The notes beneath the pieces are model-generated. The model did no database searches, had not been told where the DNA came from, and saw only the letters and a program-made list of their open reading frames with translations. DNA of 64,000 nt, taken from assembly GCF_018986915.1 (NCBI RefSeq), contig NZ_CP076723.1:2699501-2763500 (forward strand), given 5' to 3'. Below, piece by piece: positions 41,562-57,466 of this stretch; the stretch's first letter is position 1; every line of letters begins with the position of its first letter. A program made the position numbers and the translations under genes. This stretch comes from Geomonas oryzisoli (GTDB lineage: Bacteria > Desulfobacterota > Desulfuromonadia > Geobacterales > Geobacteraceae).

Positions 41562-41628
41562 GTTCCCCCCACAGCACAACAAGTCAGTGAGAAAGCTAAA
41601 GGGTCTACATTAAGGCAAACAGAGAATG

Positions 41629-41814: not shown

Positions 41815-41843
41815 GGGCCAGCTCCTGTGACTGGAACTGGCCC
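41815..41843 (-). terminator. probable terminator of the polysaccharide operon
   Basis: GGGCCAG-TCC / GGA-CTGGCCC stem (one T-G wobble) around a 7-base loop, followed on the minus strand by GTTTCTTTA. It is 30 bases beyond the E1-beta stop. The remaining 41657-41814 holds no gene. Confidence 0.7.
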
Positions 41844-41872
41844 ATAGGTGTATGGAACAGGTATGAGGACGG

Positions 41873-42910
41873 CTACTGAGCTGCGTAGCTTACCCGGTGC
41901 AGTAGCATGCCTTCTTCGTGGCAGGGCTTAACCAGCCTGTTAACCGCAGTCACTATGTCAGCGCTGACGGGGTAATAGGCAGCTTCAAGGGTTCGACTAG
42001 CGGGAGCGGGAAGGTCGGGAAGGGTGACCCGCAGTACCGGTGCCCTCAAACAGCTAAAGGCTTTCTCTGCTGCCAAAGCGGCGATTTCGGCTGCAACCCC
42101 GCAGGTTTTCCAGCCGCCATCAGCCACCACCAGCCGACCTGTTTTTTGCAGCGACTTATGTATCAGGTCGAAATCCAACGGCTTCACCGTGCGCGGATCG
42201 ATGATCTCTGCCTCAATCCCGTGCTGTGCCAGTTCCTCGGCGGCCTTGAGCGCCTCGCGCACCATGTAGCTCACAGCGACGATGGTGACGTCGCTTCCCT
42301 GCCGCCGTATGACCCCCTTGCCCAGCGGGATGCTGTAAAACTCCTCCGGGACCACCTCTTCCAAGCCGTAGAGCCAGCGGTCATCAATGAAAACCACCGG
42401 GTTGTTATCCTGAACCGCTGCTACCATGAGCCCTTTGGCGTCCGCCGGTGTTGCCGGCATGACCACTTTGAGCCCGGGGATATGGGCGAAAAGCGCGTGC
42501 AGGGCCTGGGAATGCTGTGCCCCCTGCTCTCCGCCCCGGTTGATCACCCCCCAGATGACCGCCGGGACCGGCAGTTTCCCGCCGTTCATGTAGAACCAGT
42601 TGGCAGCCTCGTTGACGATGGGATCGATGGCGTAAAGCATGAAATCCATGCGCGGATGCTCAACAATGGGGCGCATGCCGGCCAACGCGGCTCCGACGGC
42701 GGCGCCGGTCATGGCGTTCTCCGACACCGGCGTGTCGATAACCCGCCTCGCACCGAACCTCGCCAGCAACCCCTGGGCCGTGTTGCCCACATACCAGGGG
42801 CTCTTCACCCCTTGGCCGATGAGCATCACGGTTTCGTCGCGTTCCATGAGTTGGTGAAAGGCCTCATTTATGGCCAGGCTGTAGCTGAGTGTTCTATTGG
42901 GCGAAGACAT
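41873..42910 (-). CDS. 2-oxoacid dehydrogenase E1 beta-like subunit (transketolase family)
   Basis: 345 residues from ATG 42910 (GGAGG 12 bases upstream), overlapping the alpha subunit by 17 bases. The N-terminal SYSLAINEAFHQLMERDETVMLIGQGV and VIDTPVSENAMTGAAVGAALAGMRPIVE are typical of E1 beta (Glu near TPP), followed by the C-terminal domain RQGSDVTIVAVSYMVREAL and IDPRTVKPLDFDLI. E1 normally works with E2 and E3; neither is present nearby. In this context it may process a 2-oxoacid or acyl group for the surface glycan. Confidence 0.9.
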   Translation of the reverse strand: MSSPNRTLSYSLAINEAFHQLMERDETVMLIGQGVKSPWYVGNTAQGLLARFGARRVIDTPVSENAMTGAAVGAALAGMRPIVEHPRMDFMLYAIDPIVNEAANWFYMNGGKLPVPAVIWGVINRGGEQGAQHSQALHALFAHIPGLKVVMPATPADAKGLMVAAVQDNNPVVFIDDRWLYGLEEVVPEEFYSIPLGKGVIRRQGSDVTIVAVSYMVREALKAAEELAQHGIEAEIIDPRTVKPLDFDLIHKSLQKTGRLVVADGGWKTCGVAAEIAALAAEKAFSCLRAPVLRVTLPDLPAPASRTLEAAYYPVSADIVTAVNRLVKPCHEEGMLLHRVSYAAQ

Positions 42911-43874
42911 AGTTCGAAAGTTCCTCCTTGGCCGGGAATGGGCTCTGCCGCGCGAAATCGAACGCCTCACTCACCTCTGTGTCGATGACTGCGCGTATCT
43001 GTTGCAGATCTTGGGAGCTGAAACCGCCCTGCTGCAGCAGGTATTTCTCCAGGCGCTTGATCGGGTCTTTCTTGAGCCATCTTTTTATTTCCGCGGCGGG
43101 GCGGATGTCGGTATGGGTGCCCTGGACGTTGTCGTCCGGACCAACGTGCCCGCGCTGCCGGTAAGTCAGGCATTCCAGGAAAACAGGTCCTTCGCCGTTG
43201 CGGCAAAGTTCCACCGCCTGCTTTGCATGCTCGTACACCTTCAGCACGTCGTTACCGTCGATGCGATGTCCCTTCTCGCCAAACGGCAACGCCATCTTAT
43301 AGATGTTGCGACTGACGCGGATCTCATCGATGCAAAGATGGGTCGAGTAGAGGTTGTTCTCACAGACGAAAACGATAGGAAGCTTTTTGAGGGCAGCGAA
43401 GTTCAGTGATTCGGCGAGCGTCCCTTCTCCCGTCGCACCGTCGCCGAAGAAGCTGACGGCGACCTGCCTGGTGCCGCGCACCCAGGCGGACATAGCGGCA
43501 CCCAGGGCCATCGAGATGGTGCCACCGACGATAGGGGCCGAGCCGAGCATGCCACAGGAGGGGTCAATGAGGTGCATGGAGCCGCCTCGCCCACGCGAGC
43601 AGCCAGTCTCTCGGCAGAACACCTCGGCCACCATCTCCTTCAATCCCCCTCCTTTAGCCAGGTAATGGCCGTGCGAGCGATGGTTGCCGAAGATGTAGTC
43701 GTCCTTTTCCAAGACCGAGCAGACTCCGGCAGCTATTGCCTCCTCGCCCGAACACAGGTGCACCGGGCAGCGTATCTCGCGATTGAGGATGGGCTCGACA
43801 AATCCCTCCTCGCTGATGCGGATGCGCAGCATCGTTGCGTACAGATCCTCTAGTAGTTTTCGCGAATAAGTCAC
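42894..43874 (-). CDS. 2-oxoacid dehydrogenase E1 alpha-like subunit, TPP-dependent
   Basis: 326 residues. TPP motif GDGATGEGTLAESLNFAAL then VCENN (GDG...N spacing as in E1). GNHRSHGHYLAKGG, CSRGRGGSMHLIDP and the phosphorylation-loop-like RVSRNIYKMA support E1 alpha. It forms a heterotetramer with the beta subunit, whose gene overlaps. It follows the aldo/keto reductase by one base. As with beta, no E2/E3 is visible. Confidence 0.91.
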   Translation of the reverse strand: MTYSRKLLEDLYATMLRIRISEEGFVEPILNREIRCPVHLCSGEEAIAAGVCSVLEKDDYIFGNHRSHGHYLAKGGGLKEMVAEVFCRETGCSRGRGGSMHLIDPSCGMLGSAPIVGGTISMALGAAMSAWVRGTRQVAVSFFGDGATGEGTLAESLNFAALKKLPIVFVCENNLYSTHLCIDEIRVSRNIYKMALPFGEKGHRIDGNDVLKVYEHAKQAVELCRNGEGPVFLECLTYRQRGHVGPDDNVQGTHTDIRPAAEIKRWLKKDPIKRLEKYLLQQGGFSSQDLQQIRAVIDTEVSEAFDFARQSPFPAKEELSNYVFAQ

Positions 43875-43875
43875 G

Positions 43876-44826
43876 TCACCTCCTGGGTATACCGGTTATT
43901 GCATCGATCATGTCAAGTTCGTCGCCGGTCAGATTCCAACCGTCGCAACCGAGATTATCGCTTACCTGCTGTTCGGTCTTCGCGCCAAAGAGTGAACAGG
44001 TGAAGGGTGCCCGATCCAGCACCCAGCGCAGCGCCAACTGTCCTACCCGGCACCCCCGCGCCTGGGCCATATCCTTGAGCCGCGCCACGGCCTGTAGCCT
44101 GCGCTCGAATTCAGCGCCGCGGAACTCGGGCATGCGGCTTCTATGGTCGTCGGTTGCAAACTGAGCTGCCGCGGTGAATTTCCCGGTGAGCAGGCCGTCC
44201 GCAAGGGCTCCCCAGGCGACCAGCGTCACGTTGCGCCTGGAGCATGTTTCCTGCAGTTCGGTAAACGCTTTTCTGTCAAAGACATTCATCTTTACTTGCA
44301 CAGCGCTTATCGGCGCAACTTTGAGTGCAGCTTCCAAATCCTCGCAGGAAAAATTGGAGATCCCGATTGCACCGATTTTACCTTCTTCACGCAAACGTTC
44401 AAGCTCACCGACTGAATCTTCAATAGGAGTTATGCCGTCAGGCTTGTGAATGTAATAGAGAGGAACGTGATCCAGCTTCAGCCGGGCGAGGCTCGTTTCC
44501 AGTGCGGACCTGAGATAGGTAGGAGAAATATCCACCCATATACCCCTTTCTTTGGTCCAGCGCACCCCTCCCTTGGTGGCGATCACCACCTTTTTTCTGC
44601 ACCCTTCCAGCGCCCGGGCCAGCAGTTCCTCTGACTTGCCCAGCCCGTACGCGTCCGCGGTGTCGAAGAAGGTGACCCCGCCCTCGTAGGCAGCACGTAT
44701 CGCCCGCAGTGATTCCGTTTCGTCCACCGCGCCCCAACCGTGCCCTCCGACGGCCCAGCAGCCCATCCCCAGGCGGCTGACCGGGCGGTCGCAGTTCCCC
44801 AGGGGCATGTGTTCCAATAGGCTCAT
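43876..44826 (-). CDS. aldo/keto reductase
   Basis: 316 residues. Catalytic tetrad by motif: Asp and Tyr in FFDTADAYGLGKSEELL, Lys in VVIATKGG, His in LYYIHKPD. A TIM-barrel NADPH reductase follows, with GAIGISNFSCEDLEAAL and SLFGAKTEQQV at the C-terminus. It probably reduces a keto or aldehyde group on a sugar or small precursor; the polysaccharide context makes a keto-sugar plausible. It overlaps the upstream phosphoglycosyl transferase by four bases. Confidence 0.92.
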   Translation of the reverse strand: MSLLEHMPLGNCDRPVSRLGMGCWAVGGHGWGAVDETESLRAIRAAYEGGVTFFDTADAYGLGKSEELLARALEGCRKKVVIATKGGVRWTKERGIWVDISPTYLRSALETSLARLKLDHVPLYYIHKPDGITPIEDSVGELERLREEGKIGAIGISNFSCEDLEAALKVAPISAVQVKMNVFDRKAFTELQETCSRRNVTLVAWGALADGLLTGKFTAAAQFATDDHRSRMPEFRGAEFERRLQAVARLKDMAQARGCRVGQLALRWVLDRAPFTCSLFGAKTEQQVSDNLGCDGWNLTGDELDMIDAITGIPRR

Positions 44827-45491
44827 CGGTGCGCGGCCCTTTTAAGAACGCGCCAAGCTGTCTGCCATAGGATAACGAGGTCGCTACCCAGGCTCCATTC
44901 CTTAACGTACTTCACGCGCAGCGCGTTTTTACGCGGCAGGATGTGCTCCCGAAAGAACCGGTCAGGATCCTCGCTCCCCACCTGGTCATCCAGGTCGGCA
45001 AACTCTATGGAGGCGTAGTCGGTGATGCCGGGGCGCATGCACAGGATGCAGCGCTCCTCACCGCTGTACTGCGAGGTGTACTCGAGCACCTCCGGCCGCG
45101 GGCCGACAAGGCTCATGTCCCCCTTGAGGACGTTCAGGAACTGGGGCAACTCATCCAGCTTCGTCTTGCGCAAAAAGGCACCGACACGGGTCACCCTGGG
45201 GTCGTTAGTCCCGGTGGTGGGGCCGCCCAGGGCCTCGGCATCGAGCACCATACTGCGGAACTTGAGGATCCTGAAGGTGGTCCCGTTCAACCCGGAGCGC
45301 ACCCCTCGGTAGAACACGGGGCCGGGGCTGGAGAGCTTCACCGCGACCGCGGCAGCCAAAAGCAAAGGCCAGAGCACGAGGAGCACCAGCAGAGACAAAA
45401 CGAAGTCTGCGCCCCTCTTCAACATAAGTGCCCAAGTCGGATGGTCTACGGAATCCGAGCAATGTTGTTGTTTTATGAAAGTCATGCTCAC
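44823..45491 (-). CDS. PglC-type phosphoglycosyl transferase (bacterial sugar transferase)
   Basis: 222 residues. One N-terminal re-entrant membrane segment (FVLSLLVLLVLWPLLLAAAVAVKLSSPGPVFY) is followed by FRILKFRSMVLDAE, DPRVTRVGAFLRKTKLDELPQFLNVLKGDMSLVGPRPE, the core of the monotopic family, with the catalytic Asp-Glu in KLDELPQ. It loads the first sugar phosphate onto undecaprenyl phosphate and so starts repeat-unit assembly. It overlaps the aldo/keto reductase by four bases. Confidence 0.95.
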   Translation of the reverse strand: MSMTFIKQQHCSDSVDHPTWALMLKRGADFVLSLLVLLVLWPLLLAAAVAVKLSSPGPVFYRGVRSGLNGTTFRILKFRSMVLDAEALGGPTTGTNDPRVTRVGAFLRKTKLDELPQFLNVLKGDMSLVGPRPEVLEYTSQYSGEERCILCMRPGITDYASIEFADLDDQVGSEDPDRFFREHILPRKNALRVKYVKEWSLGSDLVILWQTAWRVLKRAAHR

Positions 45492-45596
45492 TCCGGATTC
45501 TGAAATAGCAATGCGTCATCCCCCTCACCATCGACATATACCAGCAGGTGAAGGTGGGCTGTACGTGTGCCACACGGTGCTTTCAATATCACGCCT

Positions 45597-46832
45597 TCAG
45601 CCCCTAGCACTTGCCAGGTTTTCGATATAGTCAGCGTATTGCCCATAAATCATGTCAGAACGAAATTGAGATTCATAAAGCTTGCGCGCGTTGGCTCCCA
45701 ACTCACTACGAAGTGCCGAATCAGCTGAGAGCAGCGTGACTATTCGATAAAAAGAAGCGACATCGCCGGGAGGGTAAGAGTATCCGACGCTATATGCATC
45801 GATGAGTGCTTCCATTTCTCCTTGTAAAGAGGAAACAATAGGGATGGCTGCTGAAAAATATTCAAAGGGCTTGTTTGGCATAGCGTTATAATTGCTTTTG
45901 CCGGCCCCAGCCGGCATCATTCCAACATGCGAAATCGACATGAGGTGCAGGATATCTTCCTTATTAATCCACCCCAGCATAGTGACGTTCGGCAACTCAT
46001 TGACCTGCCGACACACTTCGTCGTACTGCTCCCCTGTTCCCGCGAAGACAAAATGAATTCTGGTATTGCGCTCCTGACAAAGACGCTTAGCTGTGCTGAT
46101 GACCGTGTCGAAGTCGTAGGTCTTACCGAAGGTCCCAACGAAGGAAAAGACAACCTTATCATGTGCAAGCTCCGCGTATTTAGAACGCGTAGCGTCAATA
46201 ACAGGGTTGGGCTGGTACCCGATATAGAAAACCCGGTCAGTGCTGCGTTGAGGCCGTCCAGCTATTCTGACTCCCCACTGGAGGCAGCCGCGGGAAACAG
46301 CAACGATGCCATCAGCGTCTGTCAACAGCTCTTTAGTCATTCGGAAGTAACCGTCGAGGACCAAGCGGGCGAAAGTCTTAAACGGTCGTGGAAATTCGTC
46401 CACAATGGTGTCAGGCCACATATCGCGGACATCTATGACAATGGGGATACTTTTCTCTTTTGAAAATCTGACCGCTGCGTGCGCTAAATCAATGATGGGC
46501 ATTGCGCTGACTATGATATCCGGCGCAGGCAATTTTTTAGCGCAGGCGGAAAAACGCTTGGCTAGACGCCGGTGGTGCAGAAAGCGTCTAAATGAAAAGT
46601 TCTTTTTATAGGTTCCTGCATGTAAAAGCCGTTGGTTGAACTGAGCTTTAACCTCAGAGACTGCATCATGGTCAAAAAGAAGTTCCTTCCCCTGATGGTA
46701 GAAAGTGCTGCACCACCATGTTACGTTGTGCCCCCTTTCTTGCAGCACTTCTCCCAAAATCCAGGTTCGCATTTTCCTAGAGTTCGGAACAAGAGGCTGG
46801 TTTTCGCCGTCCTTTATCAGCCAGATGTTCAT
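45597..46832 (-). CDS. glycosyltransferase family 4
   Basis: 411 residues. N-terminal DGENQPLVPNSRKMRTWILGEVLQERGHNVTWW and C-terminal donor domain with FSFVGTFGKTYDFDTVI, FVFAGTGEQYDEV and PNKPFEYFSAAIPIVSSLQGEMEAL. GT-B fold, retaining. It adds one sugar to the lipid-linked repeat unit. It overlaps the methyltransferase gene by four bases and has a 105-base gap to the downstream phosphoglycosyl transferase. Base composition is visibly less GC-rich than in flanking housekeeping genes. Confidence 0.9.
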   Translation of the reverse strand: MNIWLIKDGENQPLVPNSRKMRTWILGEVLQERGHNVTWWCSTFYHQGKELLFDHDAVSEVKAQFNQRLLHAGTYKKNFSFRRFLHHRRLAKRFSACAKKLPAPDIIVSAMPIIDLAHAAVRFSKEKSIPIVIDVRDMWPDTIVDEFPRPFKTFARLVLDGYFRMTKELLTDADGIVAVSRGCLQWGVRIAGRPQRSTDRVFYIGYQPNPVIDATRSKYAELAHDKVVFSFVGTFGKTYDFDTVISTAKRLCQERNTRIHFVFAGTGEQYDEVCRQVNELPNVTMLGWINKEDILHLMSISHVGMMPAGAGKSNYNAMPNKPFEYFSAAIPIVSSLQGEMEALIDAYSVGYSYPPGDVASFYRIVTLLSADSALRSELGANARKLYESQFRSDMIYGQYADYIENLASARG

Positions 46833-47611
46833 TTCGCCACTTTCGGATCAGAGAGAGTAAAGATCATCTGCCATGCCATCAGCTGGACATAGGGGATTTT
46901 CAGCAAGACATCATCGACGGCTTCGAGTGTAGAGAGGATAGGCTTAAAGATAGGAGTATTGCGAAAAGGGACCGCAGCAATGGAAGCGAGATGAAAATAA
47001 TCTACCTTTACCGTCCCGAAATACTTCTTTGCCTTGCGCAGATCCCGCAGGGTCAGGATATGCTCGGCCTCCCATGCCGTGCGAAGATGGGGCGTCATCT
47101 TGCGATAAAGAGAAATGATAGGGTTGTACCCCAAAGCCTCACCACAGATGATGAGCCCACCCGGTTTCAGAACCCTTGCCAGTTCGGGGTAGGCATTATC
47201 CAGATCCAGGTGGTGCAAAACTCCACTGCAAAGGATGACGTCGAAGGTATTATCCGGAAATTGCAGTTCTTCGGCATCCATAACCGAAAAGTTAGTCCGG
47301 TCAGCAACCCCGGCCTTTTTGGCCTCTGCTTCTGCCGTCTTCACAGACTCGTCGCTTATGTCTATACCATAGACAATGCCGCCCTTTTGTGCCATCTGTA
47401 ACGACATTGCACCTAACCCACAACAGTAATCCAGAACGGTCTTACCTTTCACACTGCGCTCGATAAGCCCGTCTATGTACTCAGTGCTCTTTCTCTGAAT
47501 CGCATAGTATTTCTTGTTGGAATATTTCTTGAGGAAAGATTCCTCGTCCATACAGGACCTGTCTTCCTCTCGCATGTTGTGGAATTGCATTTCCTGCTCT
47601 TTCCTGTTCAT
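46829..47611 (-). CDS. SAM-dependent methyltransferase, class I
   Basis: 260 residues, GAGGAGCTAAC upstream of the ATG. SAM motif I is VLDYCCGLGAMSLQMA, then GIDISDESV, FSVMDAEELQFPDNTFDVILCSGVLHHLDL and VLKPGGLIICGEALG. It is a UbiE/Methyltransf_11-like enzyme that probably methylates a sugar hydroxyl, an amino group, or an intermediate in the pathway. It lies between the KamA-like and GT4 genes. Confidence 0.91.
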   Translation of the reverse strand: MNRKEQEMQFHNMREEDRSCMDEESFLKKYSNKKYYAIQRKSTEYIDGLIERSVKGKTVLDYCCGLGAMSLQMAQKGGIVYGIDISDESVKTAEAEAKKAGVADRTNFSVMDAEELQFPDNTFDVILCSGVLHHLDLDNAYPELARVLKPGGLIICGEALGYNPIISLYRKMTPHLRTAWEAEHILTLRDLRKAKKYFGTVKVDYFHLASIAAVPFRNTPIFKPILSTLEAVDDVLLKIPYVQLMAWQMIFTLSDPKVAK

Positions 47612-47659
47612 GTTAGCTCCTCAAGATTTGGGAATTTGTCTTATGTCGCCAATTGGCGG

Positions 47660-48736
47660 TTAGCACGCATCGTCGTACCAGACCCTCAAATATCCCCGCT
47701 CATCCACTTCAGCTGTTGCGGGTAACTGCCAAGACCCGTTCCACATCCGTCGCTCATCGTAGCGATAATTGCTTTGAAGCAAAATCTTGTTGTCCTTCTT
47801 TTCAACGACCACTCCCTCGTAGAACGTGATCTTGCCGATGTCTGACATAGCAGCGAACATTGGCTTTGCTCTTCCTGAAATTTTACCGCTGCAGACCAAC
47901 TCCTTGACAAGTTGAAGTCCCCGCGTAACGCTGGTCCGCAAGTGATGAATGCCAACCATGGGAATACAGTGGAAGAGATAATGAGACTCTATGTTGTTCT
48001 GTCTCATCTTGTTGTAAAGTTCCACCAGCGTCTCAATGTTGTCGTTTACTCCCTTTAGGAGGACATTCTGGGAATAAACTTTAACGCCACAGTCAGAGAT
48101 CCTTTTGAAGGCAGCCTCCACCTCGGGGAAAAACTCCACAGGGTGGTTGATCTGTGTGGCCAGCTCAAATCTCAGCGAAGGCTTGTTGCTGAAAAGATTC
48201 TGAACGCTTTGGTCGATTCTTGCCGGATCCTGCCCCGGTATTCTAGAGGCGATGCGGGCAATCTTAATATTTGGAGCATACTCGATGAGCGCGTTGAGCA
48301 GAACTTCTAACCGTTGCGGGAAGATGAGGGGGTCCCCCCCGGTAATCAGCACCTCGTTGAGGATATCCCTGTTGCTGGGATGCCCGCAGTATTTCGCCAC
48401 TTCAATCAATTGCTTTTCGGACAGGGTGTGCTTCGCATAATTACTTCTGAGACAATAGCGGCAATGGGCAAGACAGACCAAGGTCGGTTCGATGACGAGC
48501 GTCTTCCGATACAACCGCTCCAACCCGGGGAGGATGCACTCCTCATTGTGAACTTCTACCCCAGCCTCATAGTGCTTCAGGCTGTGCTCATTTGCTACGG
48601 CCCCCTCCTCCTCTGACTTGCAGTACTGTAGTGCGAGGCCGAGGTACGCACGTGATTCCGGCCCTTCAGACGATTTTAGGTCTGAGAGTCTTTCACGAAG
48701 AAAAGGTGTTATTTTTTCGGGCAACAACTGGCTCAT
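47660..48736 (-). CDS. KamA-family radical SAM protein (amino-acid 2,3-aminomutase-like)
   Basis: 358 residues. The radical SAM motif CLAHCRYC is at ~112-119 (PTLVCLAHCRYCLRSNYAKHTLSE), then EVLITGGDPLIF. The PLP-lysine region reads PMFAAMSDIGKITFYEG; the lysine of the GGGGK motif of lysine 2,3-aminomutase is present as DIGK. Two residues that bind the lysine side chain in clostridial lysine 2,3-aminomutase (Asp293 in CDLS, Asp330 in VVDAP) are replaced here (CIPM; the second by Ala in my alignment). It is therefore unlikely to act on lysine. The most economical reading is an aminomutase for another amino acid supplying a beta-amino acid to the glycan. Confidence 0.85.
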   Translation of the reverse strand: MSQLLPEKITPFLRERLSDLKSSEGPESRAYLGLALQYCKSEEEGAVANEHSLKHYEAGVEVHNEECILPGLERLYRKTLVIEPTLVCLAHCRYCLRSNYAKHTLSEKQLIEVAKYCGHPSNRDILNEVLITGGDPLIFPQRLEVLLNALIEYAPNIKIARIASRIPGQDPARIDQSVQNLFSNKPSLRFELATQINHPVEFFPEVEAAFKRISDCGVKVYSQNVLLKGVNDNIETLVELYNKMRQNNIESHYLFHCIPMVGIHHLRTSVTRGLQLVKELVCSGKISGRAKPMFAAMSDIGKITFYEGVVVEKKDNKILLQSNYRYDERRMWNGSWQLPATAEVDERGYLRVWYDDAC

Positions 48737-48765
48737 GAATTCCCCCTTTAGATAGCATGGCCTCT

Positions 48766-49629
48766 CTAACGCAGAAACCTTGCAGGGTTTCCGACGTAGA
48801 CACCTGGATCCGATAAGTCCTCCACTACGACCGCCCCCTGTCCGATGGTGACGTCGTCATGTACCGTGACATTTTCTCGGATGCATGCGTTCGGCGCGAT
48901 TGTTACATTGTCACCGAGCACAACATTGAAAGCAATGACGGAACCTGCTGTGACCATGCATTTGCTGCCTATGTAACTTCCGCCTCCAATATGTACAAGA
49001 TCGTCGAGCTTGGTATTGGCACAAACGGTCGTATCCTCGACGATAGCACGCTCTATCGTAGTGTTCGACCCGATCCATACCTGGTCGCCCACGATCACCC
49101 GCCCCAGTTGAGGAGGATGAAAAGGAACACCATCCTCGTCATCGATGAAGCCCCACCCCTCGCTACCTACCACAGCTCCGTCCTTTATCACGCATTGCTT
49201 CCCTATTGTTGCCGGACCATTGATTACGACGTTGCTGAGAATCTTGGTATTGTCTCCTATTTCCACATCGGGACCGATAACGGACAAGGCGCCGACCATG
49301 ACGTTGCGACCTATCCTGGCTTTGTCGGAAACTACAGCGGAAGGATGTACGGTATTCATGGTAAGAGTGGAAAAAAACTCTCTTAGGACGTTGCCCATGT
49401 CCAGTTCGGGGCGGTCAGTGACGATGTATGCATGGCATGGCGATCTTTCCTCTGGGGTAGAGGTCAAAAGCAGGATGTTTGCGGGGTTGGCGACATTGCG
49501 CGCCGGCCCCGATTGGTAAATCCTTAGGGAACGGGGCCCCTCCAAGATAAAATCCGTCCCAACCAGGTCCCTGTTTAGGAACCCCGCTATCTCAGAGGCC
49601 CAAACTTCAAACTTTTTCAGTTCGTACAT
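48766..49629 (-). CDS. LpxD-like acyltransferase paralog lacking the catalytic His
   Basis: 287 residues. The N-terminal domain ~1-90 is of the LpxD type (LTSTPEERSPCHAYIVTDRPELDMGNVLREFF). Left-handed beta-helix hexapeptides occupy ~95-287 (HPSAVVSDKARIGRNVMVGALSVIGPDVEIGDN onward). LpxD has QIAHNVQIG with a catalytic His; the equivalent here is HIGGGSYIG, so the His is absent. It may bind substrate or act through another residue. The downstream gene order places it immediately before kamA-like and after its better-conserved paralog. Confidence 0.88.
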   Translation of the reverse strand: MYELKKFEVWASEIAGFLNRDLVGTDFILEGPRSLRIYQSGPARNVANPANILLLTSTPEERSPCHAYIVTDRPELDMGNVLREFFSTLTMNTVHPSAVVSDKARIGRNVMVGALSVIGPDVEIGDNTKILSNVVINGPATIGKQCVIKDGAVVGSEGWGFIDDEDGVPFHPPQLGRVIVGDQVWIGSNTTIERAIVEDTTVCANTKLDDLVHIGGGSYIGSKCMVTAGSVIAFNVVLGDNVTIAPNACIRENVTVHDDVTIGQGAVVVEDLSDPGVYVGNPARFLR

Positions 49630-49657
49630 TGGTCATCTCCTTTTGATAAGTGCCAGA

Positions 49658-50542
49658 TTAAGGATGAATCTGACGGGAAGGCACACCTGCTACTGTCGCG
49701 CCGTCCTGGACATCCTTAAGAACCACGCTCCCCAACCCAACGACTGCTCGGTCACCCACTATTACCTTTTGCTTAACCACGCTATTAGGTGCAATCCAGC
49801 ACCGTTCCCCAATCACAGCACAGCCGCATATCACCACATTGGCCATCACCAACGTATTCCTACCAATGGTGACGTTGTGTCCTACCTGTACTAGATCGTC
49901 AATCTTGCTCCCTTGCCGTATCAGGGTAGCCCCGAGCGAGGCGATTTCGACACTGGAGCACGCTCCAATCCAGACGTCGTCCTCGATTACAATCCTGCCA
50001 AGATGCGGAAAGTGTAAAGGACTTCCGTCGTCATCATATTCAAAGCCGAAGCCCTGTGCCCCGATCACGCTATTGGACTTAATTCTGCAGCGCTTGCCGA
50101 GGCTGACATTACCTTCTATAACCACTCCGGAACCGATTTCACAGCCTTCACCGATCTCGACTCCTCCCTCTATCCTGGTGTAGGCACCGACAATGACATC
50201 GCTGCCAATGCGAGCATCGGGAGAGACGAGTGCGGTCGGATGAATCCCTACGGTCTTGCGAGGCAAAAAGAACTTGGTTAGAACCTTGATGAAATCCAAA
50301 CGCGGATTGTCCGAAACAATATGCGAACCAGACAGATGTGGCGCAGTTTCTTGGTCGCAAATGATCAAAGCAGGGTTCCCCTTGACGACCGCGGCTATTC
50401 TCTCAGGCGTCAGACTGCGCACCCACACCAGGTCTCCCCCCCCACACTCTTTCAAATCAGCAGGTTTCACTACCGGAACATCTGCTCCGTGCAAAGGCTT
50501 GCCGAGAAACCCGGCGATGTCAGCTGCAAATAGATCCCGCAT
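49658..50542 (-). CDS. LpxD-like N-acyltransferase
   Basis: 294 residues from ATG 50542 (AGAGGGG upstream). The N-terminal LpxD-type domain contains LVWVRSLTPERIAAVVKGNPALIICD, followed by a hexapeptide beta-helix (HPTALVSPDARIGSDVIVGAYTRI; IDDLVQVGHNVTIGRN). The HN of VGHNVTIG matches the catalytic His of LpxD. LpxD moves an acyl group from acyl-ACP to UDP-3-acyl-glucosamine; here the genomic context suggests transfer of another acyl or aminoacyl group to a sugar amine. 17 bases separate it from the ligase gene. Confidence 0.9.
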   Translation of the reverse strand: MRDLFAADIAGFLGKPLHGADVPVVKPADLKECGGGDLVWVRSLTPERIAAVVKGNPALIICDQETAPHLSGSHIVSDNPRLDFIKVLTKFFLPRKTVGIHPTALVSPDARIGSDVIVGAYTRIEGGVEIGEGCEIGSGVVIEGNVSLGKRCRIKSNSVIGAQGFGFEYDDDGSPLHFPHLGRIVIEDDVWIGACSSVEIASLGATLIRQGSKIDDLVQVGHNVTIGRNTLVMANVVICGCAVIGERCWIAPNSVVKQKVIVGDRAVVGLGSVVLKDVQDGATVAGVPSRQIHP

Positions 50543-50559
50543 TCGCGTCCCCTCTTTTG

Positions 50560-51888
50560 TCAATAAGCCTTTCTCACCCTCTTGGTTTTCCCTTCCGATC
50601 GTGGGAACATCCCATATTCCAACAGTTCCACTGCAGGCGTAAAATTGAGCTCTGATGCACACAACTCTGTTAGCATCTCCATAAGTCCGGGGAATTCATC
50701 CTTGGTCACCGTCTGCCCTGCTTCAACACGAAGCACCGGCCTTTCATAGGGAGGCGGTGTCGTAAGGACCAGCTCATACTCCCCGCTGAAACAGGCGTGG
50801 CGATCAGACAGGATTTTGCCGACTGAACTGGGGTAAACGTTGATCCCACGCACGGTAATCATGTCATCAACACGGTCTACCACCTTGAATCTAAGAGAGT
50901 TCCGCCCGCAATCACACCTGGAAGTTGACAACACTTCGATCAGGTCACCGGTTTTGTAACGGAGTAGAGGCTGTGCCTCACGAGTGAGGTTAGTCAGAAC
51001 CATCTCGCCAATCTGGCCTGCAACAACAGGCAGCTTGATTCCACTATCGGGATTTATCAGTTCCAAATGGATTATCCCCTGGCCATGGAAATGAAGCCCT
51101 GCTTGATGTTCACATTCGGATCCGAAAATGCTCAGCACATCCGACATTCCGTAGTTGGCATCCATGGGTTCAAGCCCCCAAGTGCTTCGTATTTTTTCTC
51201 TGATTTCCGGATTCTGCAGTCCCCCTTCCCCCCCCAGGAAGGCCTTTTTGAGTCCGAGATCCTTTGGTGTGATTCCGAAATCCTCCTTCAGTAAAAGCTC
51301 AAGCCGTGACAGGTATGACGGAGTGCAGGAGATGCCCGTGGGCTTTATTCTTCTAATGGTTTCTATCAGTTTATGTGAGTGGCCTACACCAAAGGGAACA
51401 ACCATGGCGCCGACTCCCTCAAGGCTCAAATGGTCAGTGACCCCTCCCGCCCACATACAATAACTTAGGCAGTGAACAACGGTATCGTTGGGAGTCAACC
51501 CGGCGCATCTAAAGGCACGGATTCCTGCTGTCAAAGTAGATTGGACGTCCTTTTCCGTCATTGCAATGAAGACGGATCGCCCGGAAGAACCGGAAGTGAC
51601 ATGGACCCGCCGCAGATTTTCCTGCATTTGTGGAGCATTGGCCAACCGGCCAAAGGGTGGAAAGTCTGCCTGCTCCTTTAAGACATCTTCCTTTGAGGTG
51701 AACGGAAGCTCGCCAAAGTTTTTCATCTCCAACACATCGGAAGTGGCGAGGCCAACTGCTTTCCATTTTTCGTTGTAAAAATCACTACAGTCGGCGATGT
51801 ACTTCAGTTGTTTGCCCAAGAGGGGAAAGTCAACCTTTTCAGAGCATTCCTCATACGTAAGTGTTTCAATGGCTTCAAGCACGTTCAA
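50560..51888 (-). CDS. PaaK/CapK-like AMP-dependent ligase
   Basis: 442 residues. ATP loop HVTSGSSGRSVFIAMTEKD at ~95-113, then MDANYGMSDVLSIFGSECEHQ (adenylation A5-type) and YKTGDLIEVL followed by CDCGR, the phenylacetate-CoA-ligase-family zinc or cysteine motif. It forms an acyl adenylate, usually passing it to CoA. PaaK relatives in polysaccharide loci (CapK) are thought to activate acyl substituents. It lies between the PIG-L deacetylase and the two LpxD-like genes. Confidence 0.91.
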   Translation of the reverse strand: MNVLEAIETLTYEECSEKVDFPLLGKQLKYIADCSDFYNEKWKAVGLATSDVLEMKNFGELPFTSKEDVLKEQADFPPFGRLANAPQMQENLRRVHVTSGSSGRSVFIAMTEKDVQSTLTAGIRAFRCAGLTPNDTVVHCLSYCMWAGGVTDHLSLEGVGAMVVPFGVGHSHKLIETIRRIKPTGISCTPSYLSRLELLLKEDFGITPKDLGLKKAFLGGEGGLQNPEIREKIRSTWGLEPMDANYGMSDVLSIFGSECEHQAGLHFHGQGIIHLELINPDSGIKLPVVAGQIGEMVLTNLTREAQPLLRYKTGDLIEVLSTSRCDCGRNSLRFKVVDRVDDMITVRGINVYPSSVGKILSDRHACFSGEYELVLTTPPPYERPVLRVEAGQTVTKDEFPGLMEMLTELCASELNFTPAVELLEYGMFPRSEGKTKRVRKAY

Positions 51889-51926
51889 AAATCACCTCCA
51901 ATGATATCCACTACAGAGGGGCATCG

Positions 51927-52565
51927 TCACATGATCCAGCGAAGGACCTCGAATGTCTCTGCATACTTGACACCTACCTGGGTTCCCCTCGTGATGGCCA
52001 GTGATCTGAGGAACTCTTCACTAGAATAGAACCTTTGATTCTGTGACCTGTAGCATGCCAGGGCAGCTATTTTTGTTTTGAGATGATCCTCAGTCAGCGT
52101 GACGAAACAAGTCGTATTGAAAGACAGGTTGTTCCACGGGACCTCATATCCCAGAATCGTCGACGAGAGTTTGAACGCCCTCAGCCCTTCGCTCGCGATA
52201 GTGCCATGATCCTGGTGCAAGTCCTGTGACGACGGGAGGAAGACCAGATCGGGCCGAATATCTTTTCCCAGCTTTACCATGCTGTCTAAAATTTCTTGCC
52301 GGTCCCGGGGGAAGCAACGGACCTCGAAGCCTAGATTGAATACATTTGCTGCGGGAATCTTTAAGAGGCTGGTGGCTTCTCCCAATTCACGTGCCAAGGT
52401 TCCAGAAGGGCATCCCGGTGGAAGAGATTTCTCGCAATCGGAGAAGGCTGCGTAAAAAACCTCCTTCTGTTCATCTATGAACCGGGTAAGAGTTCCACCA
52501 CAGCCAAACTCACCGTCATCGGTGTGCGGAGCAAGGACAAGAATACGTTTAAAGGACCTGATCAT
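51927..52565 (-). CDS. PIG-L/LmbE family N-deacetylase
   Basis: 212 residues. Metal-binding motif VLAPHTDDGEFGCGGTL (PHxDDxE) at ~12-20 and HQDHGTIASEG (HxxH) mid-protein, both in the PIG-L pattern. These zinc enzymes remove an acetyl group from N-acetyl sugars. Deacetylating an amino sugar would expose the amine for the adjacent acyltransferases. The start follows directly on from a 68-base gap after the GT4 gene. Confidence 0.92.
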   Translation of the reverse strand: MIRSFKRILVLAPHTDDGEFGCGGTLTRFIDEQKEVFYAAFSDCEKSLPPGCPSGTLARELGEATSLLKIPAANVFNLGFEVRCFPRDRQEILDSMVKLGKDIRPDLVFLPSSQDLHQDHGTIASEGLRAFKLSSTILGYEVPWNNLSFNTTCFVTLTEDHLKTKIAALACYRSQNQRFYSSEEFLRSLAITRGTQVGVKYAETFEVLRWIM

Positions 52566-52633: not shown

Positions 52634-53830
52634 CTAGTAACGGCTGAAATTATCCAGAAGTTCTGCGACTACGCTTTCTACTGCAAAATGTTTCATCACA
52701 CGGGATCTTCCTGCTTCTATAAGTCGCAGACGCTCAGTGTTGTCTTCCAAGATATGTTGAATAGCATCGGCCAAAGCCAAAGCATTCTCCGGTGGGACCA
52801 GTACCCCCGCGCCATCAGACAGAAGCTCTGGAATCCCTCCGGTACGTGTCGAGACAACGGGAATCCCATATCCCATGGCCTCGATGAGTGATACAGGTAT
52901 GCCTTCATGCAAACCGTTGCCTAGATCGATACTGGGCAGGATAACCAAATCGACCTTGTTTTCGCGGTACAGCGACATCACGTCTGAATGCGGCAAGTGG
53001 CCCATAAACTGCACAATAGGTTCAAGGCGTAGTGAGGCAACCTGTTTCTGAAGTTCATCGTAAAGAAAGCCCTCGCCTGCAAGTTGTAGCCGACATTGGA
53101 CACCGCGGTCTCTCAGGATGGCGATGGCACCAAGGAGGTACTTGTGTCCTTTTACCGGGAAAAAAGTAGCCGGGCACAGAAGCGTCGGTGTGCTGCTGAG
53201 TGTTGCTGTTACCTTGAACACTTCGGGCAGAATTGCCCCCATATGCACAATGACAGCAGTTGTTTTGCCTAGGTCGGCGCCCACGGACTTGGCAAGATTG
53301 CGGCCGCTATGGGATATGAACCTCACAAACCTGGCATTTTCGAATTTAACCTGCAACAGGTTGTTGGCAACTATATCTCCCCTGTGGGCGGTGACGCTCC
53401 AAGGAATCCCTGAGACAGTACTGGCAAACAGTGCAAGCGATGCAGTAGTAGAGCACCAGTGAGCATGGATATGGTCTACTTTCTGGCAGGCGGCAAGCCT
53501 CGAGAACCAGAGCGCTTTCGGAAATACCGCGACATTATGAAAGAACACCTTCGGGCTACGGCAACGCAAAAGGAAACGGGCGGCCTTAATTGTCGCGAGT
53601 GGCTTTGAGAGCGCCTCCAACATCGCCCCCCACAACACTGGAAAGGACAATAAGGGTGCCGGGAATGCCAACCTTGCCAGTTCAGGGGCCATGACTTGCG
53701 AAGAATTCTCGGGTGACCTCGGTACAATGATGACATCAATGCCCTTTTTGAGGAGTTCGGTCACCTCGGCGATGAGAAAGGATTCGCCATTGCCAAAAGG
53801 CATCGTCGCTGTTACATACGCGATCTTCAT
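52634..53830 (-). CDS. glycosyltransferase family 4
   Basis: 398 residues. N-terminal MPFGNGESFLIAEVTELLKKGIDVIIVPRSP; donor domain with PTLLCPATFFPVKGHKYLLGAIAIL, LQLAGEGFLYDEL and EGIPVSLIEAMGYGIPVVSTRTGG (the E-x7-E motif). GT-B retaining enzyme adding a repeat-unit sugar. It overlaps the Wzy gene by four bases. HIHAHWCST resembles the acceptor-side motif seen in colanic acid-type GT4 enzymes. Confidence 0.92.
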   Translation of the reverse strand: MKIAYVTATMPFGNGESFLIAEVTELLKKGIDVIIVPRSPENSSQVMAPELARLAFPAPLLSFPVLWGAMLEALSKPLATIKAARFLLRCRSPKVFFHNVAVFPKALWFSRLAACQKVDHIHAHWCSTTASLALFASTVSGIPWSVTAHRGDIVANNLLQVKFENARFVRFISHSGRNLAKSVGADLGKTTAVIVHMGAILPEVFKVTATLSSTPTLLCPATFFPVKGHKYLLGAIAILRDRGVQCRLQLAGEGFLYDELQKQVASLRLEPIVQFMGHLPHSDVMSLYRENKVDLVILPSIDLGNGLHEGIPVSLIEAMGYGIPVVSTRTGGIPELLSDGAGVLVPPENALALADAIQHILEDNTERLRLIEAGRSRVMKHFAVESVVAELLDNFSRY

Positions 53831-55305
53831 GCCCTCTCCGCCTCCTTCTTTTCAGCAGGGCACAAGAAACTGCGGTTCAACGATGGCAGCAAGAACACGA
53901 CTAGGAACGGGATGAGCCCCATAAGCAGATTCTTGAAGTTGCCGAAGAGACCGGAACGCACGGCGGCCAGGACCAGTGCGTTGTACATGACTGCGTAGAT
54001 CAATGGGACCGCGTCGTAATGGATGTTTTTTTTGACCCACTGGAATATGGTCTCTACGCACCACCCGTAGACAAAAGTCAGCACCAGAACTCCCAGCACG
54101 CCGCCGGCCCAATATCCTTCCTGCAGGAAAAAGAAACCGAAACCGCCCCCCTGCTCGAGTTCTCCCGGATAAAATGTCGCTGCGAACTGCTCGCTCAGAG
54201 GCAAGGGACGGGAAGGAAAGAGTACCTTCGGAATGAAAACAAGGAACTCGGAGATCAAGGAAAGCCCGTAAGTGAAACCTGATTCGTTGGCATTGATGCC
54301 TGAAATCAGGCGCAGCAGGTTAGTGCCGACCAGCAGTTCCGTGGAAGAGGTGAAGCTTAGAAACTTGGCGTCGCCGGACTGCAGGGCGGCCTGCACAAGA
54401 TTGTACATCTCGCCAAGGTTGCTTGTGCTTCTGACAAAGCTCATAACATTAACAAAAAGGTACACGAGAGCCCCTGAAAGCACAGCGGCAACAGTCTTTA
54501 TTCTTCTGACGCGATAGTGATAAAAAATTGCAGGGATAATCACCGCTGCCATCACCTGTCCCCGCCATCCCGCCATAGTGTTTCTCGCCAAATAGGACAA
54601 GATGATGACACTGCCGGCTATCATGTAGGCCCGTTTCCGGCTTGTAAAAACATACAAAGTGGCAAGGCAAAGTATCAGCGTTAAAGGAAGGTTGGTGAAC
54701 AGGGTCTCTGTTATCCCCGAAGCGCTATCTTGCATTCGTTCCAGGCGCAGTGCCAAGGCCCGCTCTGCATACGAAGGGACATTCAGGAAATTAAACCACG
54801 GTAGCAATCTGTAGCAGAAGATCCCTCCCAACAACAACGCAGCCCAAAACAGCTTCTGGTGAAACTTGTTGTTCTCAACAAGGAAAACGGAGGGGAAACG
54901 AATCCCTGTCGCCGGCATCTTGATGCGCTGGGCGAAAAGCATTCCACCGACAAGCCCGATCAGCCCCGCCAGGCATGAGAAGTAGTAGGTGGTTAGTACA
55001 TCGTCACCGACAGGATCATTGTGTGCAGTTAGCCCCGTAGTTTCAGCAAACAGCGCGGAAGATACCGCGTACAAAAACAGCAAAACCGTGAGGCCAACAC
55101 CAGGAGAAAAGAAATCAATGTCCCTTCCCTCGCAGTAAGCTGACAGGAACAGCCCAACTATCACTACGTAGACAAATACAAAGGCTTGAAAGGGGGAGCT
55201 TAGGTCATAGACACCGGCAAGCTGCCCCAGGACGGCACCGCCAGCCAGGGACGACATCAATATCCCTTTTCTCAGTGCCTGAAGATTATCTCTGTTGGGA
55301 TTCAA
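53827..55305 (-). CDS. Wzy-like O-antigen/EPS repeat-unit polymerase
   Basis: 492 residues, about twelve membrane segments (for example VFVYVVIVGLFLSAYC, LTVLLFLYAVSSALF, FSCLAGLIGLVGGMLF, FWAALLLGGIFCYRLL, NLPLTLILCLATLYVF). A long loop between ~290 and 380 contains SGINANESGFTYGLSLISEFLVFIP. Wzy proteins have little sequence conservation, so the assignment rests on topology and position next to Wzx and glycosyltransferases. It overlaps the upstream acyltransferase by 20 bases. Confidence 0.82.
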   Translation of the reverse strand: MNPNRDNLQALRKGILMSSLAGGAVLGQLAGVYDLSSPFQAFVFVYVVIVGLFLSAYCEGRDIDFFSPGVGLTVLLFLYAVSSALFAETTGLTAHNDPVGDDVLTTYYFSCLAGLIGLVGGMLFAQRIKMPATGIRFPSVFLVENNKFHQKLFWAALLLGGIFCYRLLPWFNFLNVPSYAERALALRLERMQDSASGITETLFTNLPLTLILCLATLYVFTSRKRAYMIAGSVIILSYLARNTMAGWRGQVMAAVIIPAIFYHYRVRRIKTVAAVLSGALVYLFVNVMSFVRSTSNLGEMYNLVQAALQSGDAKFLSFTSSTELLVGTNLLRLISGINANESGFTYGLSLISEFLVFIPKVLFPSRPLPLSEQFAATFYPGELEQGGGFGFFFLQEGYWAGGVLGVLVLTFVYGWCVETIFQWVKKNIHYDAVPLIYAVMYNALVLAAVRSGLFGNFKNLLMGLIPFLVVFLLPSLNRSFLCPAEKKEAERA

Positions 55306-55918
55306 AGCCGCTCATTCCTTTATAGGGCGAGGGATGGCAGTGGTTTCTTAACACACTCCTCGCTTTTTCTGTCTCCTCCTCAGTAGGGAAGCGAGACCTT
55401 ACTGGTTTGGCCGGGATCCCGGTACAAATGGTGTAGGGGGCCACGTCCCTGGTAACAATGGATCCGGCACCGATGACGGCACCGTCGCCGATGGTAACGC
55501 CTCTTAGCACGATGACGTTGGCGCCGATCCAGACGTCGTTGCCGATTACCGGCGGTGGCTGCTCCTTGTCGGTAGTGGCATCTTCGCCTTCCAGCACTTT
55601 GATGAGGTTGGGAGAAGTTGTTACTCTCCTGTAATCATGTTCGGTAGGGCCTATCAGAACGTTGTAACCCAGCGATGACCAAGAGCCTATTACACCGCTC
55701 ATGATTTCGCCGGAGTTGACGTAGGTCCCCTTCCCTACGGAGACATTACTCCCGATGGTGACGTCGCCAAAGTAAGCGGCTCCACGGATCTTCGCCCGCG
55801 GGCTAATTCGCGCCCCGGCTCCAAGCTTTACCCCCAGCAAGGACGCACGGGTAAAGCCCGCAGCATAAAAGAGCGTGTAGGCCACCAACGCCACAATATT
55901 CTGTAAAAGTTGCAACAT
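55286..55918 (-). CDS. hexapeptide-repeat acetyltransferase (CatB/WbbJ-like)
   Basis: 210 residues. N-terminal membrane-like helix (ALVAYTLFYAAGFTRASLLG), then hexapeptides RISPRAKIRGAAYFGDVTIGSNVSVGKG and NDVWIGANVIVLRGVTIGDGAVIGAGSIVTRDV with the catalytic His in GPTEHDYRR. It likely O- or N-acetylates a sugar of the repeat unit using acetyl-CoA. It overlaps the Wzy gene, and both follow the flippase. Confidence 0.9.
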   Translation of the reverse strand: MLQLLQNIVALVAYTLFYAAGFTRASLLGVKLGAGARISPRAKIRGAAYFGDVTIGSNVSVGKGTYVNSGEIMSGVIGSWSSLGYNVLIGPTEHDYRRVTTSPNLIKVLEGEDATTDKEQPPPVIGNDVWIGANVIVLRGVTIGDGAVIGAGSIVTRDVAPYTICTGIPAKPVRSRFPTEEETEKARSVLRNHCHPSPYKGMSGFESQQR

Positions 55919-55957
55919 GTGTCTTCTCCGTCCGGGACGCGAGGGGTGGTCGGGTGC

Positions 55958-57466
55958 CTAGCGCACACTGATTGCGGGCAGGACATACCTCCTGAAGATG
56001 CTGTTGGTCGCTGGAGTTACCAAGACGGTAGCCACAAAGCTGAGCAGGTAGCAAAGCGCAATAGTAGCGACACCTGCAAGTCCAGACATTCTCCAGAAGA
56101 CGGCAAATTTGATGAGAACCACTACAGCTACCGCGGCGGCCAGTGGCCGGCAGAGATCTTCCCAGAACCATTTTGCCTGCTCCCCTGGGATGAAGCGCTT
56201 GTGTGTCACGAAGACCGCAATGGCGTTTTGCAGCAGACTGATTAACGAAAAAGTGACTGCTGCCCCTAACACACCCCATACCTTCACGGCCAACACGAGC
56301 AACGGCGCATAAACCAAAAGAAATGGCATGAACACGTACAATATGTACCTGGTCTCCCCGAAAGCCTGCTGCAGCGAGTACGGCATGTACAAGAGCCCGT
56401 TCAGCGTCCCTCCAACGAGTAGCACTGATAGAATCAGATAGCTGTACTGCACCGTTTCTTGATCGGCAATCCACAAGGACAGGATTTCCCGTGAGTAGAC
56501 GGCAAGCACTGCGGAAATGGGGAAGACTGCCACCGCCATGAGTTGGCATCCCTTGTGGTAGGTAAGCTTCAGCTCAGCATGATCTCCCTTCGCGCGCAGT
56601 TGGGTGATCACTGGGAAGAAAGCTGCGTAGATAGGGTAATAGAGCATAAACAAGCTCCCTACAACTTGCCACGCAAGGCTGTAATAGCCAAATTCGATGA
56701 GCGAGAGTTGCTTGCTGAGCACAATCTTGTCCAGTTGGTTGAAGAGTAGGATCACCACCGACACAGCGCTCATGCCGATCGCCAAGCGCCAGACCGATTG
56801 GACCAGCTCGCCCTGGAACCTCGAGCGCTGGCCGCCCACCGGAAGCGAACGCCAAAGTGCAATGGCGACTGCAGCGACATTGGTGATACTCATAAGAAGT
56901 TGCCACCAAAAGAAGGCAAGTACCGGCGATGAGGCCAGCATGACTACCACCAGCGCCCCTACGCCGCGTAAGGTCCACAGCACAGTGTTGATTGAGTTGA
57001 ACAGGACCTGTCGTTGCAGCCCCATTAGTCCACCGGTGTAGAATCCTACCGGCCACTGGAACACGATAGAAAGCCCCATGAGAAGAACAGATTGCTTCAC
57101 CACCTCCAAAGGAAGCGCTTGAGGTTTTACCCAGTTGGCTGCAACCATTGGCGAAACCAGGAGCACTACACAGCACAGCACCGCTGCAAGCCCCCAATAA
57201 ACGACTTCCAAGGTGCGTACGAGGTTACGCATCACCTGTTCTTGCCCCGACGCGGCGGAATAGCGGGCAAGTTCACGGTTGATTGAGGGGCTGAGTCCCA
57301 AATCCAATATGGTCATCAGCGGTTGGATCGTCGCGAAAATGCCAACCAGCCCATAGGCCTCGATCCCCATGTGCTTTATGTACAGCGGAACGAAAGCGAT
57401 GTTGATAAGGGCAGCCCAGGCCTTACCGGCGTAGTTAGCTATTACATTCTTCTTGAGTGTGCTCAA
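55958..57466 (-). CDS. Wzx-like lipid-linked oligosaccharide flippase
   Basis: 502 residues with the MATE/MOP (polysaccharide transporter) pattern: VIANYAGKAWAALINIAFVPLYIKHMGIEAYGLVGIFATIQPL at the N-terminus, then a dozen membrane helices, with KGCQLMAVAVFPISAVLAVYSREILSLWI in the middle. It moves undecaprenyl-linked repeat units across the inner membrane for Wzy polymerisation. It overlaps the upstream phosphatase-superfamily gene by four bases. Confidence 0.92.
   Translation of the reverse strand: MSTLKKNVIANYAGKAWAALINIAFVPLYIKHMGIEAYGLVGIFATIQPLMTILDLGLSPSINRELARYSAASGQEQVMRNLVRTLEVVYWGLAAVLCCVVLLVSPMVAANWVKPQALPLEVVKQSVLLMGLSIVFQWPVGFYTGGLMGLQRQVLFNSINTVLWTLRGVGALVVVMLASSPVLAFFWWQLLMSITNVAAVAIALWRSLPVGGQRSRFQGELVQSVWRLAIGMSAVSVVILLFNQLDKIVLSKQLSLIEFGYYSLAWQVVGSLFMLYYPIYAAFFPVITQLRAKGDHAELKLTYHKGCQLMAVAVFPISAVLAVYSREILSLWIADQETVQYSYLILSVLLVGGTLNGLLYMPYSLQQAFGETRYILYVFMPFLLVYAPLLVLAVKVWGVLGAAVTFSLISLLQNAIAVFVTHKRFIPGEQAKWFWEDLCRPLAAAVAVVVLIKFAVFWRMSGLAGVATIALCYLLSFVATVLVTPATNSIFRRYVLPAISVR

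Follow-up and report, generated by a model that had tools for sequence, protein, structure and literature searches.

Why should a gene for a relative of lysine 2,3-aminomutase stand among the polysaccharide genes of Geomonas oryzisoli, in one row with genes for a ligase, two acyltransferases, a deacetylase and a methyltransferase? The row lies in a stretch of 64,000 nucleotides (positions 2699501–2763500 of a single-contig genome of 4.85 Mb; hereafter the window), in which six genes on the minus strand occupy window positions 46829–52565, separated by internal gaps of 17–48 bases and embedded in a Wzx/Wzy-type polysaccharide locus. Comparison with other genomes showed that the KamA-like (aminomutase-like) gene, a PaaK-like ligase gene and an N-acyltransferase gene recur together as a unit in several phyla, for the most part within glycan loci; that this unit is real and recurrent is close to certain. 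The best explanation, to which we assign a probability of roughly 0.6, is that the aminomutase product would be used to N-acylate a glycan amine through the enzymes of the block, which would be a horizontally spread glycan-tailoring cassette.

A preliminary description of the window had proposed a six-gene module for the re-acylation of an amino sugar. The six contiguous, co-directional genes are present, and their family assignments were upheld by Pfam and NCBIfam profiles. They are listed here in reading order, with the codon of one residue discussed below (bit scores are followed by the cut-off of the model; aa, amino acids; CoA, coenzyme A; SAM, S-adenosylmethionine):

51927..52565, minus strand: PIG-L family de-N-acetylase, 212 aa (PF02585, 56.5 bits, cut-off 28.2; HxDD and HxDH motifs)
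50560..51888, minus strand: PaaK-like ligase, an adenosine monophosphate (AMP)-forming acyl-CoA ligase, 442 aa, TTG start, core gene (AMP-binding_C_2, 44.3 bits, cut-off 25)
49658..50542, minus strand: LpxD1, LpxD-like N-acyltransferase, 294 aa (NF002060, 272.1 bits, cut-off 207)
48766..49629, minus strand: LpxD2, second LpxD-like protein, 287 aa (NF002060, 219.1 bits, cut-off 207)
47660..48736, minus strand: KamA-like radical SAM aminomutase, 358 aa, core gene (PF04055, 36.2 bits, cut-off 29.5)
47831..47833, minus strand: codon of Lys302 of the KamA-like protein, aligned to K337 of Protein Data Bank (PDB) entry 2a5h and invariant in 17 of 17 loci
46829..47611, minus strand: class I SAM methyltransferase, 260 aa (Methyltransf_11, 92 bits, cut-off 21.2)

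The PIG-L gene is 68 bases from the upstream glycosyltransferase gene and 38 from the PaaK-like gene, which is followed by gaps of 17 (to LpxD1), 28 (LpxD1 to LpxD2), 29 (LpxD2 to KamA) and 48 bases (KamA to methyltransferase); the methyltransferase gene overlaps the next glycosyltransferase gene by 4 bases. LpxD1 probably starts at the ATG at 50542 and not at the mechanically called GTG at 50662.

In the proposed pathway, of which the substrate, product, order of steps, acceptor and source of the amine are all inferred, the KamA-like enzyme, using radical SAM and pyridoxal phosphate (PLP) chemistry, would take an alpha-amino acid other than lysine and shift its amino group from C2 to C3, and the PaaK-like ligase would convert the resulting beta-amino acid to a CoA thioester. 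The LpxD-like (in some loci perhaps PglD-like) left-handed beta-helix enzyme would then move the beta-aminoacyl group onto the amine of a glycan sugar. This amine would be freed by PIG-L through removal of an N-acetyl group in the window and three other loci, and would be supplied by a sugar aminotransferase in nonulosonic-acid loci. What the comparison establishes directly is that the genes are present, ordered and conserved as described, that catalytic residues are kept and that the lysine-recognition pair is lost.

The distribution of the unit was searched with the KamA-like protein alone as the seed. Among 141 genomes of the order, 136 contain some KamA-family match and only the host's own copy scores high; the best match in the other 140 has 35% identity and 113 bits, which, together with the low G+C content of the module (0.51, where the adjoining glycan genes have 0.57 and the window as a whole has 0.59), fits transfer. 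The search of 395 genomes drawn from the phylum yielded two orthologues (66% and 56% identity) and three proteins at 32–33%. A broad scan covered one genome per species for 84,980 species and was limited to two short peptide patterns from a three-row alignment; it returned 24 loci, 12 with orthologues (43–66%) and 12 with distant KamA proteins (26–34%). The records that contain the orthologues are named as Desulfovibrionales, Deltaproteobacteria (two, the same as in the phylum search), Omnitrophica, Planctomycetota, Bacteroidota, Hydrogenedentota, Bacillota/Firmicutes (three, one of them Syntrophomonas), Epsilonproteobacteria and Aminicenantes, or eight phylum-level groups when Desulfovibrionales and Deltaproteobacteria are taken as one. 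Around four carrier genomes, sets drawn from larger groups were searched: those of 398, 347 and 247 genomes each contained one extra orthologue, and that of 237 had none. One further orthologue (L093) came from 2.9 million viral contigs, in a scan likewise limited to patterns. Altogether, 16 orthologues were found outside the host genome, making 17 loci with the window (L058 and L046 lie on a single contig, L051 and L047 on another, and each of these contigs was counted once; some loci are contig fragments of 6–20 kb). The family is rare and scattered, as would be expected of a horizontally moved trait.

A tblastn comparison of the window proteins with these loci showed that a PaaK-like ligase gene lies within 2.5 kb of the KamA-like gene in all 17 orthologous loci, the window included. 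None of the 12 distant-KamA loci from the broad scan has one, four of these being shorter than 10 kb (Fisher p = 2e-8, to be taken as a guide only because of these short controls and because the loci are partly related, L055, L056, L057 and L090 being close kin). The pairing held in the first 13 of 13 loci and, checked after the pattern had been seen, in 4 of 4 found later (L090–L093). The L092 ligase is encoded at 11373–12584 of that locus. Gene order is variable, the PaaK-like gene following KamA in L050 and the LpxD-like gene preceding PaaK in L093, so the two genes stay linked through rearrangement. In 15 of 17 loci an acyltransferase gene of the LpxD-like or PglD-like kind is adjoining: an LpxD-like gene is next to KamA or PaaK in 11 (window, L046, L050, L051, L053, L054, L060, L065, L091, L092 and L093, with one extra open reading frame between the ligase and LpxD-like genes in L054), and the other four (L055, L056, L057 and L090) have a PglD/NeuD-like gene immediately after KamA, as does L060. 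The KamA and PglD genes overlap by a single base in L056, L057 and L090.

The preliminary description had treated the six genes as one module. Its core recurs, in the KamA–PaaK pair and the acyltransferase; the remainder is much less constant. PIG-L joins the unit in 4 of 17 loci. Two LpxD-like genes occur in 2 of 17 (window, L046), which does not support the pair as a general feature; LpxD2 lacks the LpxD catalytic histidine. The methyltransferase, which adjoins KamA in 1 of 17 loci and has matches several kb away in L049 and L050, was rejected as a member. PIG-L, the second LpxD-like gene and the methyltransferase are accessories of the core KamA plus PaaK unit.

The viral locus L093 lies in a 112 kb IMG/VR record, of which about 34 kb was read, so further sugar genes may be present in the rest. 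Genes for PIG-L, LpxD-like, PaaK-like and KamA-like proteins are consecutive at 5311–9047, flanked by a YfbR-like nucleotidase gene and a crAss001_48-related gene. The same 17 kb encodes topoisomerase II subunits, an endolysin and a holin, and the next 17 kb helicases, a primase, a DNA polymerase, a DNA ligase and a UvsX-like protein; the record as a whole has no NeuB. Because one phage carries all four genes together, this arrangement suggests that they work as a unit. Within 4639–10427 of the record, a glycosyltransferase-looking protein with no Pfam match at E 1e-4 is encoded two genes beyond the cassette. A second viral scan gave no further member of the module KamA clade. Pseudomonas and Vibrio phages (about 195–208 kb) and other viral contigs carry distant KamA-like proteins at about 27–29% identity (27–29% in GenBank phages, from 15 of 19 records listed, and 28–29% in the IMG/VR contigs L096–L098).

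The closest PDB relative of the PaaK-like ligase is phenylacetate-CoA ligase 4r1l (E 6.5e-54). PaaK models are among its best curated matches, yet it scores under their cut-offs (200.2 vs 646.3 bits for the equivalog TIGR02155), making it PaaK-like and not PaaK. Such ligases are expected to carry a C-terminal lysine, which is present in 16 of 16 readable tails. The first alternative is that the ligase and the acyltransferase add an ordinary hydroxy or aryl acid, KamA serving a separate end such as a beta-amino acid osmolyte or another tailoring step. The nearest curated families of the ligase are indeed aryl-CoA ligases, and ligase–acyltransferase pairs are familiar in glycan loci; however, KamA and PaaK stay together in 17 of 17 loci while their order varies, and in the phage contig the two are part of one consecutive run with PIG-L and LpxD-like genes, which makes a KamA of independent purpose unlikely.

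The sole PDB sequence match of the KamA-like protein is lysine 2,3-aminomutase 2a5h (E 4.5e-32). Its predicted structure (mean predicted local distance difference test score, pLDDT, 87.5; predicted template-modelling score, pTM, 0.88) also has this enzyme as its best PDB match (E 2.8e-21, TM-score 0.65 by query length), followed by RlmN (E 2.8e-7). It has the marks of a radical SAM protein, with PF04055 above its cut-off and the CxxxCxxC cysteines in 17 of 17 loci. In the alignment, the R134, Q258 and K337 positions of 2a5h are kept in 17 of 17 (R97 and K302 of the window protein align to R134 and K337). D293 is kept in none, being replaced by I, V, L or C, and neither is D330, where the loop is two residues shorter. 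Among 17 control KamA-family proteins, chosen by hand from the loci, both aspartates are present in 14, and the other three (L043–L045) have a glutamate and a gap. In 2a5h, we take the D293/D330 pair to hold the side chain of lysine, R134 to bind its carboxylate group and K337 to carry the PLP cofactor.

Lysine is therefore disfavoured as the substrate, since the D293/D330 pair is gone in 17 of 17, and the best reading is that the product would be a beta-amino acid other than beta-lysine. The best curated matches of the protein are KamA-type models, yet it scores under the cut-offs of all six KamA-type NCBIfam models listed (e.g., 141.6 vs 396 bits) and does not reach the lysine 2,3-aminomutase models TIGR03820 (122.5 vs 525.4 bits) and, for the subfamily, TIGR00238 (130.7 vs 199.2 bits). 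An earlier suggestion that KamA makes an unusual amino acid fits the retained catalytic residues and the lost lysine-binding aspartates, the chemistry itself being presumptive. Two sets of KamA proteins were rejected as relatives of the module: L043–L045 (32–33%), with no other module gene in the surrounding 20, 20 and 5.6 kb that were read, and a Thioflavicoccus plasmid KamA (31%), whose neighbours are annotated as 2,3-diaminopropionate, diaminobutyrate and ATP-grasp genes. L043–L045 and L078 form a subgroup with a glutamate for D293 and a gap at D330, in stretches read without other module genes.

The altered pocket, with the lysine side-chain pair gone and the loop before the PLP lysine two residues shorter, would also suit a second alternative, in which the ligase activates an ordinary alpha-amino acid and KamA acts late, on the aminoacyl-CoA or the sugar-bound aminoacyl group. 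Such substrates fit poorly with the arginine aligned to R134, presumed to bind a carboxylate, which is invariant in 17 of 17 loci, and this order of events seems slightly less probable still than an ordinary acid. In the tree, the 17 module KamA rows separate from five outgroup rows at 100/100, so the module proteins are, by this phylogeny, a distinct, single well-supported clade. Chance clustering of PIG-L, hexapeptide transferase, PaaK-like ligase and methyltransferase genes, each common in glycan loci, around a misplaced KamA homologue would fit the methyltransferase (next to KamA in 1 of 17) but is very improbable in view of the pairing in 17 of 17 vs 0 of 12 loci and the single KamA clade.

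The broader LpxD subfamily model NF002060 recognizes both LpxD1 and LpxD2, which share 40% identity. Neither reaches the LpxD equivalog TIGR01853 (207.5 and 175.6 vs 242.5 bits); the LpxD N-domain PF04613 scores 20 vs 30.8 bits in LpxD1, and LpxD2 is not among the matches listed. In the alignment to Escherichia coli LpxD (3eh0), H222 of LpxD1 lies at the position of His239, which we take to be the catalytic residue of LpxD, and LpxD2 has a glycine there. The histidine is kept in the single-LpxD loci L054 (by alignment), L091 and L092 (by motif); L046_2, like LpxD2, lacks it.

With regard to the amine, PIG-L was found in the window, L046, L091 and L093. The relatives in the same cluster have 67% (L046), 54% (L091) and 25% (L093) identity to the window protein, and the PIG-L motifs are present in 4 of 4; the window protein scores below the cut-off of the bacillithiol deacetylase BshB (TIGR04001, 57.8 vs 182.5 bits). 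NeuB was found within the stretch read in 9 of 17 loci (L049, L050, L054, L055, L056, L057, L060, L090 and L092), that is, in 9 of the 13 without PIG-L. No locus has both (4 PIG-L, 9 NeuB, 4 neither; Fisher p = 0.03), and the PIG-L label needs at least three changes on the KamA tree, forced by well-supported branches. Around PaaK–KamA–PglD in L090 lie genes whose products score above cut-off for LegB (528.5 vs 475 bits), LegC (538.3 vs 420), NeuB-type (442.2 vs 399.65) and NeuC-type (469.3 vs 235.9) models, with PglD-like (155.9 vs 160.8) and CMP-transferase (143.5 vs 205.7) products below. LegC is above cut-off also in L056 and L092, and the NeuB-type protein of L092 falls short (346.3 vs 399.65). 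These data hint weakly that PIG-L and NeuB loci have two ways of presenting a free sugar amine. NeuB-family matches, some of them weak, occur somewhere in 14 of the 16 records searched, including the L091 genome, so the exclusivity concerns the locus only.

A number of observations weigh against beta-aminoacylation by the unit. L049 and L052 have no adjoining acyltransferase gene: in L049 a PglD-like gene is about 5 kb off, and in L052 an LpxD-like gene with the histidine kept and 22–26% identity to module proteins lies about 0.9 kb downstream; neither was counted. Five loci have a different residue in place of the LpxD-type histidine (Ala in L050, Asn in L051, Cys in L053, Ser in L060 and Tyr in L065), and acyl transfer in these would have to rely on some other base or proceed with no base at all. 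A protein base may be dispensable in some sugar N-acyltransferases, which would make the missing histidine compatible with activity. In the four PglD-type loci, PglD may be the ordinary acetyltransferase of the legionaminic pathway. As to the amine, a DegT aminotransferase match is present in just six of the nine NeuB loci (L049, L055, L056, L060, L090 and L092; no match in L050, L054 and L057), and DegT genes also stand in two PIG-L loci (L046 and, at the upstream edge, the window operon), so PIG-L and aminotransferases do co-occur. The stretches read of L051, L052, L053 and L065 have neither PIG-L nor NeuB, in a set where some loci are fragmentary and a divergent PIG-L could escape tblastn. 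The host genome has NeuB-family matches, one strong and one weak, only at 3.65 and 3.93 Mb, which is some 0.9 and 1.2 Mb from the window.

The surroundings of the block in the window are as follows:

52634..57466, minus strand: upstream glycosyltransferase, Wzy-like polymerase, hexapeptide transferase and Wzx-like flippase genes (Pfam)
39615..46832, minus strand: downstream glycosyltransferase, phosphoglycosyl transferase (Bac_transf), aldo-keto reductase, E1 alpha/beta pair and UDP-GlcNAc 4,6-dehydratase-like genes (Pfam, NCBIfam)

At the upstream edge of the window and beyond it are genes for a DegT aminotransferase, a hexapeptide transferase, a Gfo/Idh oxidoreductase, a Wzz-like protein and two nucleotide-sugar dehydrogenases, nearest to TviB and below its cut-off (510 and 530 vs 592 bits). 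Amino sugars are probably available in the host, because this gene set resembles the 2,3-diamino-uronic acid pathway. Before the Wzx-like gene and in the same orientation, CysD-like and CysN-like sulfate-activation genes and two sulfatase/phosphodiesterase-superfamily genes (57463–63243) suggest a sulfated polysaccharide or sulfate handling at the locus. The E1 alpha/beta dehydrogenase pair stands next to the aldo-keto reductase and phosphoglycosyl transferase genes (41873–44826), and such a pair lies about 2.7 kb from KamA, on the opposite strand, in L057. Around the module, the Desulfovibrionales and Omnitrophica loci (L049, 7363–13541; L050, 6600–13633) have protein families C15, C16 and C17 in common, with no Pfam match at E 1e-6 among four members scanned.

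Among known systems, lysine 2,3-aminomutase (KamA/AblA; 2a5h) has the same fold, CxxxCxxC motif and R134, Q258 and K337 positions, whereas the module proteins lack D293/D330 and sit with a ligase and an acyltransferase, mostly in glycan loci. Ten module proteins resemble LpxD, the lipid A UDP-3-O-acylglucosamine N-acyltransferase, in their hexapeptide repeats (25–30% identity to the E. coli enzyme) and in their presumed reaction, N-acylation of a sugar amine; LpxD1 and LpxD2 of the window differ in scoring under the equivalog cut-off, and LpxD2 also in lacking the catalytic histidine. With legionaminic-type loci (LegB, LegC, PglD/NeuD, NeuB, NeuC and CMP-transferase) the likeness is one of setting: NeuB accompanies 9 of the 17 modules, for which variation in the acyl groups of a diamino sugar is therefore a likely context. 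We know of no aminomutase or CoA ligase that is part of the legionaminic pathway. The window differs in having no NeuB in its locus and was rejected as a nonulosonic-acid locus. Streptothricin and blasticidin S are antibiotics that carry an aminomutase-made beta-amino acid, amide-linked to an amino sugar or sugar-like acceptor; unlike the modules, they come from natural-product pathways with other ligation enzymes and are not surface glycans.

No description of this gene combination was found in the listed titles and starts of abstracts from open-licence PMC full texts. The aminomutase of PMC3694923 is glutamate-1-semialdehyde aminomutase, and the nearest published setting found is that of Campylobacter flagellin nonulosonic acids with varied N-acyl groups (PMC3958885).

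A wider proposal, which we advance tentatively and hold a little short of even odds, is that a mobile cassette, present in distant phyla and in at least one large phage, would use a dedicated aminomutase to make beta-amino acids that are hung on amino sugars, giving glycans, legionaminic-type ones included, an undescribed beta-aminoacyl group with an amine of its own; the phage would use the cassette to remodel a host sugar or glycosylated parts of its own. A few purified proteins would be enough to test so sharp a pattern. If true, the proposal would bring a radical enzyme step into the tailoring of bacterial glycans, predict a sugar class overlooked by structural glycobiology, define a KamA branch with a non-lysine substrate that would be useful for beta-amino acid production, and link aminomutase tailoring to nonulosonic acids and to phage.

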